Below, one piece after another: positions 12,675 through 31,855 of a stretch of DNA of 34,268 nucleotides. Below the pieces are notes generated by a model that had not been told where the DNA came from, did not search any database, and saw nothing but the letters and a program-made list of their open reading frames with translations. A program made the position numbers and the translations under genes. The number at the start of each line of letters is the position of its first letter. The first letter of the stretch is position 1. Source of the DNA: Candidatus Hydrothermota bacterium (GTDB lineage: Bacteria; Hydrothermota; Hydrothermia; B15-G9; DRBW01); the NCBI GenBank assembly GCA_021158525.1, contig JAGGUL010000107.1:1-34268 (forward strand), read 5' to 3'.

Positions 12675-12706
12675 GGGGGCGGGGCTCGCGCGCGAGCCCC
12701 GCCCCC
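12675..12706 (-). terminator. Perfect 32-bp GC palindrome after the FG-GAP gene
   Basis: GGGGGCGGGGCTCGCG followed directly by its exact reverse complement. As RNA it forms a stem of about 14 bp with a 4-base loop, nearly all G-C. It starts 11 bases after the stop codon of the FG-GAP gene on the minus strand. There is no U-run on either side, so it is not a textbook intrinsic terminator; a U-less terminator or a 3'-end stabiliser for the long minus-strand operon is the likeliest role. Confidence 0.6.
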
Positions 12707-28798: not shown

Positions 28799-29627
28799 GC
28801 TGATCCCCGAACTTCTCCCGGAGGGTTTTGAGTGCCCTCTCCTTGAGCTGACGGACTCTCTCCCTTGAGATGCCCATTCTCTTGCCTATTTCCTCGAGGG
28901 TCTTGGGCTTGCCGTCGTCGAGCCCGAAGTAGAGGGAGAGGATCTTTCTGTCCCTGGGAGACAGGGTCTCCAGCATTTCTTTCAATTTAGTGGTCTGTTC
29001 GTTCCTCTCATAGGCCTCCTCGGGCGAGGGCAGAGCATCCTGGTCGAGAATGTCGAGGAGGGTGCGTTTCTCATTGTCGGGATATATGGGCGCATCCAGT
29101 GAGATCTCGGTAGTTACGAGCTTGTAGGCCTTTTTGACCTCTTCGGGATTGAGCCCCAGCTCTTTGGCTATTTCCTCAAAAGTAGGTTCTTCGCCCATTT
29201 CCTGCAGAAGGTCGATCTCCTTTTGCCTGATTTTCTTGAGCTTGGCCCTTCTCTCAGACGAGACCTTGATCAGGCGGGATTGCTCGTTAAGGGCCTTCAT
29301 AATGGCCTGCCGCACCCACCATATGGCGTAGGAGAGAAACCTCACCTTTCGCTTCTGGTCAAAACGCTGAAGCGCCCTGAGCAGCCCTATGTTTCCCTCG
29401 TTAATAAGATCGGCAAGGGGCACGCCGTAGCCCTGATACCTCTTGGCCATGTTTACGACGAACTTGAGGTGAGCGTAGATCAGTTTTTCAGTGGCTTCCT
29501 TGTCCCCCTGCTTCGCCTTGCGTATGAGTTCCTCCTCCTCCTCGGGAGTGAGGGGTTCCATTTTGCTTATCTCCCTCAGGTAAATCTCGAGGGAGCGCTC
29601 ATCAATGGTAAACGGGAGAGATGTCAT
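28776..29627 (-). CDS. SigA/RpoD-type sigma-70 factor, short form lacking region 1.1
   Basis: 283 residues. Region 1.2 starts at once (DERSLEIYLREISKMEPLTP), then region 2 (AHLKFVVNMAKRYQGYGVPL, DLINEGNIGLLRALQRFD, and RFLSYAIWWVRQAIM for -10 recognition), region 3 (ERRAKLKKIRQ to EEVKKAYKLVTTEISLDAP), and region 4 (LSPRDRKILSLYFGLDDGKP, TLEEIGKRMGISRERVRQLK). The -10/-35 reading parts are close to housekeeping sigma, and the promoters in this window match that consensus, so it may be the main sigma of the organism; an alternative heat-stress sigma is possible from its partner gene. It overlaps hspR upstream (ATGA) and gpsA downstream (23 bases, tail to tail). Confidence 0.93.
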   Translation of the reverse strand: MTSLPFTIDERSLEIYLREISKMEPLTPEEEEELIRKAKQGDKEATEKLIYAHLKFVVNMAKRYQGYGVPLADLINEGNIGLLRALQRFDQKRKVRFLSYAIWWVRQAIMKALNEQSRLIKVSSERRAKLKKIRQKEIDLLQEMGEEPTFEEIAKELGLNPEEVKKAYKLVTTEISLDAPIYPDNEKRTLLDILDQDALPSPEEAYERNEQTTKLKEMLETLSPRDRKILSLYFGLDDGKPKTLEEIGKRMGISRERVRQLKERALKTLREKFGDQLKDLLFE

Positions 29628-29920
29628 AATAGGTTCTCGAGTTCCTCCTCGAATTCTCTGAGGGCCCTGTCGATGTCGTCGATCATCTCCAGGATCATCT
29701 TCACCCCTGCGAGGTTAAGCCCTCTTTTCTGTGTGAGCAGCTTTATGAGCCTGAGTTTTTTCAGGTCATTCATCGAGTAAAGCCTCGTTTTTTTGTCGGT
29801 CCTTTTGGGCACGACAAGGCCCTTCTTCTCATATATGCGGAGGGTCTGCTCGTGCAGACCCACCAGCCTGGCCGCCACACTTATGACATATACAGGTTCA
29901 TCAGGACTTATTTTATTCAT
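29624..29920 (-). CDS. HspR-like MerR-family regulator
   Basis: 98 residues. MerR-type winged helix at the N-terminus: YVISVAARLVGLHEQTLRIY followed by EKKGLVVPKRTDKKTRLYS, then NDLKKLRLIKLLTQKRGLNL and a short dimer helix. This is the layout of HspR, the heat-shock repressor, including the AxLVGxHxQTLRxYE signature. HspR normally sits with dnaK-grpE-dnaJ; here it is the first gene of a two-gene unit with a sigma factor (ATGA overlap). ATG 29920 has no ideally spaced ribosome site; purine-rich GGAGG and AAGGGGG lie 10-20 bases upstream in a hairpin loop. Confidence 0.88.
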   Translation of the reverse strand: MNKISPDEPVYVISVAARLVGLHEQTLRIYEKKGLVVPKRTDKKTRLYSMNDLKKLRLIKLLTQKRGLNLAGVKMILEMIDDIDRALREFEEELENLL

Positions 29921-29921
29921 C

Positions 29922-29956
29922 TTACTAGCACCCCCTTTCCTCCGGGATGCTAGTAA
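29922..29956 (-). promoter_or_regulatory. Perfect 9-bp inverted repeat in the hspR leader (operator or RNA switch candidate)
   Basis: TTACTAGCA (29922-29930) and TGCTAGTAA (29948-29956), 17 bases apart. It begins one base before the hspR start codon and reaches the predicted transcription start. In RNA it makes a 9-bp stem whose loop holds GGAGG and AAGGGGG. As DNA it is a symmetric dimer site. It does not match the known HAIR box CTTGAGT-N7-ACTCAAG. Confidence 0.7.
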
Positions 29957-29958
29957 TA

Positions 29959-29986
29959 TTTATACGGATCCTCACGTTTTTGTCAA
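29959..29986 (-). promoter_or_regulatory. Promoter of the hspR-sigma operon
   Basis: Minus strand: TTGACA (29981-29986), 16-bp spacer, TATAAA (29959-29964). The predicted start (about 29952) falls inside the right arm of the inverted repeat. Confidence 0.8.
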
Positions 29987-30016
29987 GTTTTCGCAGTCAG
30001 GTTGACTAAGATTTGC

Positions 30017-31855
30017 TTAATGCCATTTTTTGATAAGTTCTTCGTATCGCTCGAGAGGATAGACTTCCAGCGACCTGATCCACTTGCTCAGCATCTCCAC
30101 CCTTTCCTTTCGGTCGGAAGGAATGTTGAGCGGCCTTCCCCTTCCGTCGAGTATGATGCCCACGACGCCGCCCTCTATCTCGGCCTCATGCCTCTTTCCC
30201 TTTCCCGCGCCCACGTCGAAACCTTTCTCCGGCTCCATGTAAATCTTTGCCTTCTGACCCACTTCCAGGGGGATCTTCTTTATCTCACCGTAGATGAGGG
30301 TGTCCTCGATGACGCTGCCGTCGGGCATCTCGATTTTGTATTTCATTATGGGCTTTTCCTGTTTCTCGGTTCCCCTCGGTGCGATGCTTGTCCCGAGCCG
30401 TATGAGGCAGTCCCTGTCAAAAACTTCGGTGGCCGCCTCCTCGTGAACCGTTGAGAGGACTCCCAGGTGAGGCATCATGAATATGGAATCTACTGCGAGC
30501 ATGGTCACTCCCTCGGGCTGGAATGCATCGAGCATCATCAGGGCCGACTGGACCCTTCTCGGAGCGTGGGAGAGCGCACCTCCGGAGCCGATTATGAGGT
30601 TCAGGGTCATCAGGTTCACCAGCGTCTCTCCCGTCATGGTCTGGAGGAAGGCCTCCGAAATGGTTCTCTCCTGCTGGACGCCTTTCAATCCCACGGCCAT
30701 GGTTTTGTGATGTTGAAAGGCCAGCCTCAGGGCTTCGCGGGCTATTGCCTGCTCTATTATCAGTTCCTCCAGCGTCTGGGGGATGGTCGTGGGCCTGATC
30801 ATCTTGTTTCTTATCCTGTTTCTTAGCTCGGAACTCTCTATGTCGAAGGGAACCCATCTCATTATGTTGTCGATTCCGGCTTCCACCAGCACGTTGGAGA
30901 TCGAATAGCTCATGCCGAGGTTAGCCGAGACCGTCCTGTTGAATATGCCCTGAAAGACGGAGAAGACGTCGGTAGTGGCTCCTCCTATGTCGACGCCGAT
31001 CACCTCGATGTTTTCCTTCCGGGCAACTTTCTCCACCAGAAGCCCGACTGCGCCTGGCGTAGGCATTATGGGGACATCAGTCCAGCTCATGAGTTTCTTG
31101 TAACCCGGAGCGTGCTGCATCACGTGTTCCATGAAGAGCTCGTGGATCTTGTCTCTCGCTGGCTTCAGGTTCTCCCTCTCCATCACGGGCCTGATGTTGT
31201 CCACTATGTAGAGGGCCACTTTGTCTCCGAGGATATTCTTTATGTCTTCTCTGGCATCCTTGTTGCCGGCATATATCACCGGCAGCTTATACCCCACGCC
31301 GAACCTGGGCCTGGGATCTGCCGCCGCGATGAGCTCTGCCAGCTCTATCACGTGTTTTTTCGTTCCCCCGTCGACCCCACCGGCCAGGAGGATCATGTCC
31401 GGCCTGAGCCGCCTGATGAGTTCAACCCTTTCGTGGGGAAGCCTTCCGTCATTGGAAGCTATCACCTCCATGACGATGGCCCCGGCGCCCAGAGCGGCTC
31501 TGGCGGCGCTCTCGGCCGTCATCGTTTTGACGACTCCGGCCACAAGCATCTGAAGGCCTCCTCCCGCCGAAGACGTGGAGACATAGATGTCCACTCCCTC
31601 TTTCTCGCTCTTGGCCGGTTTTATCAGCTTTTCGCCGTCCAGTATCTTCTTGTTCGTGAGCTCTTCTACCTCTCTGATCGCATTCAGCACGCCACGGGTC
31701 ACGTCCTCGAAAGGCGCCTCGACGGTGGTGGGAGCCTCGCCCCTGGCTATCAATCTGTAGCTATGGTTCTTTTTCTCAATGGATATCGCTTTGGTCGTGG
31801 TACTTCCACAATCCGTAGCTATAATACTCCTGATTTTCTCCTTGTTTATCTTCAT
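30017..31855 (-). CDS. GlmL/MutL-family protein (cobalamin-mutase accessory, ASKHA fold)
   Basis: 612 residues. ASKHA ATPase-like protein of the GlmL/MutL family, which in clostridia accompanies B12-dependent glutamate mutase or related aminomutases. Phosphate-binding motif ATDCGSTTTKAISI near the start and a second one VIGVDIGGATTDVFSV near residue 280; conserved STSSAGGGLQMLVAG, ILLAGGVDGGTKKHVIELAE and PTPGAVGLLVEKVA blocks. Its exact job is not settled even in model organisms. No mutase subunit gene (B12-binding or TIM-barrel) lies in this window. ATG 31855 has GGAGG 6 bases upstream. It has its own promoter and stands alone between hspR and the M16 peptidase. Confidence 0.9.
   Translation of the reverse strand: MKINKEKIRSIIATDCGSTTTKAISIEKKNHSYRLIARGEAPTTVEAPFEDVTRGVLNAIREVEELTNKKILDGEKLIKPAKSEKEGVDIYVSTSSAGGGLQMLVAGVVKTMTAESAARAALGAGAIVMEVIASNDGRLPHERVELIRRLRPDMILLAGGVDGGTKKHVIELAELIAAADPRPRFGVGYKLPVIYAGNKDAREDIKNILGDKVALYIVDNIRPVMERENLKPARDKIHELFMEHVMQHAPGYKKLMSWTDVPIMPTPGAVGLLVEKVARKENIEVIGVDIGGATTDVFSVFQGIFNRTVSANLGMSYSISNVLVEAGIDNIMRWVPFDIESSELRNRIRNKMIRPTTIPQTLEELIIEQAIAREALRLAFQHHKTMAVGLKGVQQERTISEAFLQTMTGETLVNLMTLNLIIGSGGALSHAPRRVQSALMMLDAFQPEGVTMLAVDSIFMMPHLGVLSTVHEEAATEVFDRDCLIRLGTSIAPRGTEKQEKPIMKYKIEMPDGSVIEDTLIYGEIKKIPLEVGQKAKIYMEPEKGFDVGAGKGKRHEAEIEGGVVGIILDGRGRPLNIPSDRKERVEMLSKWIRSLEVYPLERYEELIKKWH

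Follow-up and report, generated by a model that had tools for sequence, protein, structure and literature searches.

What does the perfect inverted repeat that stands directly before the start codon of an hspR gene do: is it read as DNA, by the repressor that this gene encodes or by another regulator, or does it act within the messenger RNA? The repeat, TTACTAGCA-N17-TGCTAGTAA at 29922-29956, lies in a window of 34,268 nucleotides (the whole stretch of DNA analysed), which is contig 9 of a 2.0-Mb genome held in 129 contigs. The deposited MAGs of same-order relatives are labelled candidate division WOR-3, and the host is probably a heat-loving, uncultured WOR-3 bacterium. The evidence described here suggests that the repeat is more likely to tune the output of the repressor and its partner sigma factor than to serve as HspR's DNA target, a role for which a different palindrome, shared among heat-shock promoters, is the better candidate.

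Results

The hspR-sigma operon and its promoter

The identification of the gene as hspR-like, made in the earlier note from the letters alone, is borne out by the family models, narrowly: its product scores 105.9 bits against the NCBIfam HspR equivalog, for which the cut-off is 105. The start of the sigma factor gene overlaps the hspR stop codon by ATGA. Sixteen bases separate the TTGACA and TATAAA elements of the promoter assigned here (Table 1); a strict consensus promoter scan listed no hspR promoter. The repeat begins only 2-3 bases past the -10 element, and the transcript therefore probably starts within its left arm. The repeat had been described as spanning from the transcription start to the ATG; it does end one base (29921) before the ATG, but at its other end the start probably falls inside the arm. 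RNA from this promoter would then have a stem of 8-11 bp, with 2-5 pairs of the perfect repeat possibly missing.

Table 1. Features of the hspR locus, in window coordinates
Feature	Position	Strand	Remarks
GlmL/MutL-like gene	30017..31855	minus	Co-directional, upstream of hspR
Candidate HspR operator ATTAAGCAAATCTTAGT	30005..30021	minus	13/17 to clade palindrome; upstream of hspR promoter
-35 element TTGACA	29981..29986	minus	Invariant in 7 ortholog promoters
-10 element TATAAA	29959..29964	minus	By eye; orthologs well conserved as TATAAATATTA
5' arm of repeat, TTACTAGCA	29948..29956	minus	Sequence
17-base spacer TCCCGGAGGAAAGGGGG	29931..29947	minus	Holds GGAGG and AAGGGGG
UCCC pairing with GGGG	29944..29947 with 29931..29934	minus	Predicted fold; loop GGAGGAAAG at 29935..29943
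Shine-Dalgarno AAGGGGG	29931..29937	minus	Conserved in ortholog leaders (GAAGGGGGG)
3' arm of repeat, TGCTAGTAA	29922..29930	minus	Sequence
hspR, MerR-family heat-shock repressor, 98 aa	29624..29920	minus	NCBIfam HspR equivalog, Pfam MerR_1
Sigma-70 family factor, regions 1.2, 2, 3 and 4, 283 aa	28776..29627	minus	Pfam/NCBIfam

An intrinsic terminator at the hairpin was considered and rejected: no T run follows 3' on the minus strand, and the terminator scan lists none there. On the strand opposite to hspR, positions 29801-29854 (+) give a sub-threshold match to the Rfam ClpQY_promoter family (21.9 vs 42 bits), probably by chance. Elsewhere in the window, at 12675-12706, lies another perfect inverted repeat with 14-bp arms and a 4-base loop, GGGGGCGGGGCTCG-CGCG-CGAGCCCCGCCCCC.

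Our HspR search covered all 147 available genomes of the phylum and returned 14 positives at E <= 1e-12; HspR was not found in the viral contigs searched. G165:C15 (L012) encodes two HspR-like domains in a single open frame, as in the fused-homodimer HspR type. The sigma gene lies downstream of hspR in most orthologs of the class. The f3 genomes without hspR have the sigma gene directly abutting the GlmL/MutL-like gene, and hspR with its promoter was therefore either inserted into, or cleanly lost from, a GlmL/MutL-like-sigma operon. Read-through from the upstream GlmL/MutL-like gene may be ancestral, and only in RNA made by such read-through would the 13-bp stem be complete.

An exceptional predicted fold around the translation start

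The 9-bp arms have the coordinates first reported for them and are perfectly complementary, and the minus strand of the 17-base spacer holds both GGAGG and AAGGGGG as claimed. Seventeen bases is correct as the distance between the arms but not as the size of an RNA loop: the spacer pairs too (UCCC:GGGG), which leaves a predicted hairpin of 13 bp with a 9-nt loop. Similarly, the suggestion that the loop presents the ribosome site holds for GGAGG, which is predicted to be free in the apical loop 18 nt from the AUG, but not for the conserved AAGGGGG 10 nt from the AUG. There, AAG lies in the loop and GGGG is predicted to be paired with UCCC in the stem, and the mean unpaired value of AAGGGGG is 0.43. 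The computed accessibility of the Shine-Dalgarno is ordinary, as 31% of other genes in the same genome are as low or lower.

Arms of 9 bp are not by themselves rare: the count of perfect inverted repeats in the window is seven for arms of at least 9 and loops of at most 30. The hspR leader as a whole is nevertheless exceptional and non-random. Its fold of -21.2 kcal/mol (z -6.6) was reached by none of 69,701 dinucleotide shuffles, the closest being -21.1, and fewer than about 0.03 such leaders are expected by chance among 2,000 genes. In a sample (not a census) of 98 other leaders of the same genome, picked by a simple rule of ORF plus Shine-Dalgarno, none folds below -16.9 and none has z <= -3.5.

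Ortholog leaders

The comparison of leaders in related genomes proposed by the earlier note, with compensatory changes expected of an RNA and base-exact conservation of a DNA site, gave a divided answer. In four genomes of the same order (f2), HspR is 80% identical and the promoter and Shine-Dalgarno are kept; the repeat and hairpin were not found in these four leaders. Merely a 5-bp stem lies on the Shine-Dalgarno in G002 and G004. The same-genus G001, whose contig begins inside the sigma gene, was left out of this comparison.

In G014 (f8), whose HspR is 74% identical with a nearly identical DNA-binding part, the leader has a strong hairpin of its own (fold P 0.003 by shuffle). Placed at an equal distance from the -10 element, this leader fits 11 of the 13 stem pairs (shuffle P 0.0004, uncorrected for the six leaders tried, in a superposition examined after the G014 fold had already been seen). 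The two stems differ by four double and two one-sided compensating changes. Such pairing is absent in G002, G004, G006 and G019, and in G019, from a sister genus of G014 in the same family, no hairpin was found. The hairpin was either lost twice or arose twice. The arms of G014 are not base-exact, with 4 of 8 paired positions differing from the source genome, and because the arms diverged with the DNA-binding part of HspR almost unchanged, the comparison leans toward RNA structure and away from a DNA site. The support for an RNA role is weakened by the missing hairpin in the four f2 orthologs and G019.

A palindrome shared by heat-shock promoters

A 17-bp palindrome, ACTCARAAAATYTGAGT, occurs at the hsp20, clpB and grpE-dnaK promoters of the source genome and of hspR-bearing relatives (loci L090, hsp20; L111, clpB; L088, grpE-dnaK; and L112, L069, L094 and L117), and it is not a HAIR box. 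Scored against a consensus that is the majority of the sites outside the source genome (one column tied) and was compiled with knowledge of all sites, the source-genome copies match at 14/17 (hsp20), 13/17 (clpB, where the site sits between -35 and -10), 12/17 (grpE-dnaK) and 13/17 (hspR). Relatives reach 13-16 of 17 in G019, 14 at grpE in G014, 15 at clpB in G004, 13 at hsp20 in both G004 and G008, and 14 at clpB in G006. G034 has hspR and no clear palindrome. At hspR itself, G000 (the source genome) and G019 alone show a clear palindrome; the copy in the window shares bases with the stop codon of the GlmL/MutL-like gene, and taken alone it has a shuffle fraction of 0.015.

Six heat-shock promoters of the source genome together give 73 palindrome matches against 59.2 +- 2.0 in shuffles, and none of 1,500 shuffles reaches 73. 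The main hsp20 promoter has a site of at least 12/17 in 6 of 7 hspR-clade genomes and in 0 of 11 without hspR (Fisher P 0.0004, for relatives that are not independent, and with G001, whose hspR locus is unassembled, counted among the seven by kinship). HrcA was not found in the ten clade genomes searched, and HspR is therefore the likely, putative reader of the palindrome.

In Streptomyces and Helicobacter, HspR is autoregulated through HAIR, CTTGAGT-N7-ACTCAAG (PMC6102357). The system described here resembles that one in having an HspR ortholog by the NCBIfam model and chaperone genes that share a palindrome with half-sites of the ACTCA/TGAGT type. It differs in the order of the half-site letters, which in the clade palindrome (ACTCAGA-AAA-TCTGAGT) is the opposite of that in HAIR. 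The hspR-leader repeat resembles neither, and the earlier note was correct that it is not a HAIR box. The HAIR search singled out no G000 promoter, ortholog promoters gave nothing convincing (G019 reaches P 0.04), and HAIR is not enriched over the same six promoters (46 vs 48.3 in shuffles).

Discussion

We consider it about an even bet that the hairpin is a lineage-restricted translational damper on hspR and the sigma gene, acting as RNA. The operon transcript would fold into a leader-spanning hairpin that ends just before the AUG. The stem would hold the 3' half of the Shine-Dalgarno, so that translation of hspR would be lowered or made conditional, and through the ATGA coupling that of the sigma factor might be lowered too. 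HspR itself would probably act through the separate DNA site, ACTCARAAAATYTGAGT, at chaperone promoters and in the copy upstream of its own. The exceptional fold energy and the compensatory changes in one ortholog favour the RNA element that the earlier note offered as one of its two readings, and the absence of the hairpin from the other orthologs speaks against it. The ordinary accessibility of the Shine-Dalgarno and a transcription start inside the left arm also count against a translational hairpin. With the same accessibility and with most orthologs lacking the hairpin, it is possible, though unlikely, that the repeat has no regulatory role, being either an accidental or neutral palindrome or a stem at the 5' end whose sole effect is to shield the mRNA from degradation. 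The shuffles that never matched the fold energy, and the similar geometry in G014, argue otherwise.

If the damper were also a thermometer, the stem would close the Shine-Dalgarno at growth temperature and melt on heat shock, so that more HspR and more sigma factor would be made. The heat-shock regulator gene with its coupled sigma factor and the conserved Shine-Dalgarno half in the stem suit such a role. So does a thermophilic host, suggested by the proteome through an IVYWREL estimate of 77 C, which comes from crude ORFs by a rough method. A start inside the left arm would also weaken the stem, to -3 to -5 kcal/mol at 80 C. Even so, we regard a thermometer as unlikely. The predicted pairing hardly shifts over 20 to 85 C, the stem stays closed to 85 C, and in shorter transcripts that start inside the arm it is predicted to be weaker yet still closed at 80 C; a switch near 85-90 C is conceivable, though the models do not point to one, and the heat-sensitive switch raised by the earlier note stays a minority reading. 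Across the compared genomes, higher estimated growth temperatures do not go with more stable hairpins: the thermophile-like G006 and G034 are without a strong hairpin, and G014, with the lowest estimate (43 C), has one. Nor is there a match to an Rfam thermometer family. The known RNA thermometers include the fourU, ROSE and rpoH types. Like them, this hairpin lies in the leader of a heat-shock regulator gene and is predicted to pair part of the Shine-Dalgarno; unlike them, it has a stem so stable that by prediction it would not melt below about 85-90 C, and its anti-Shine-Dalgarno strand is neither U-rich nor destabilised by internal loops. A two-layer circuit in a probably thermophilic lineage, with HspR acting through the non-HAIR 17-bp palindrome and a fast-evolving, temperature-responsive leader hairpin setting the synthesis of HspR and the sigma factor, seems to us quite unlikely.

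The other reading of the earlier note, in which the repeat is an operator at +1 through which HspR represses its own gene, making it a new type of HspR target, is improbable. A site lying across the transcription start would be well placed for repression, and part of the palindrome lies before the likely start, where an RNA element would have no use for it. The repeat is, however, a single copy, the genome search having found no other within 3 mismatches, and its half-site has best matches of just 6-7/9 at other heat-shock promoters. The arm centres lie 26 bp apart, as opposed to 14 in HAIR, the repeat is absent from the same-order orthologs with its arms not conserved in G014, and the 17-bp palindrome fits the regulon better. 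A perfect palindrome over a start site might instead be the operator of some other, locus-specific regulator; the same lack of a second copy and of conservation in the same order, together with the absence of HrcA from the ten clade genomes and the fact that no candidate regulator emerged, make this very improbable. The HrcA-bound CIRCE element has the form TTAGCACTC-N9-GAGTGCTAA. The repeat resembles it as a palindrome in a heat-shock operon leader whose arms share the letters TAGCA/TGCTA, but its spacer does not fit 9 bases, and with no HrcA in the ten clade genomes a CIRCE reading was rejected.

If the translational damper is real, a repressor and a sigma factor would come from a single mRNA in which the fold hides the translation start, and their dosage would be linked. 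The shared heat-shock palindrome is the more durable result and matters more than the hairpin. It provides a candidate HspR operator that can be tested, in a phylum where we found no experimental data on regulation. Moreover, the opposite order of its half-site letters, compared with HAIR, bears on the evolution of HspR recognition.
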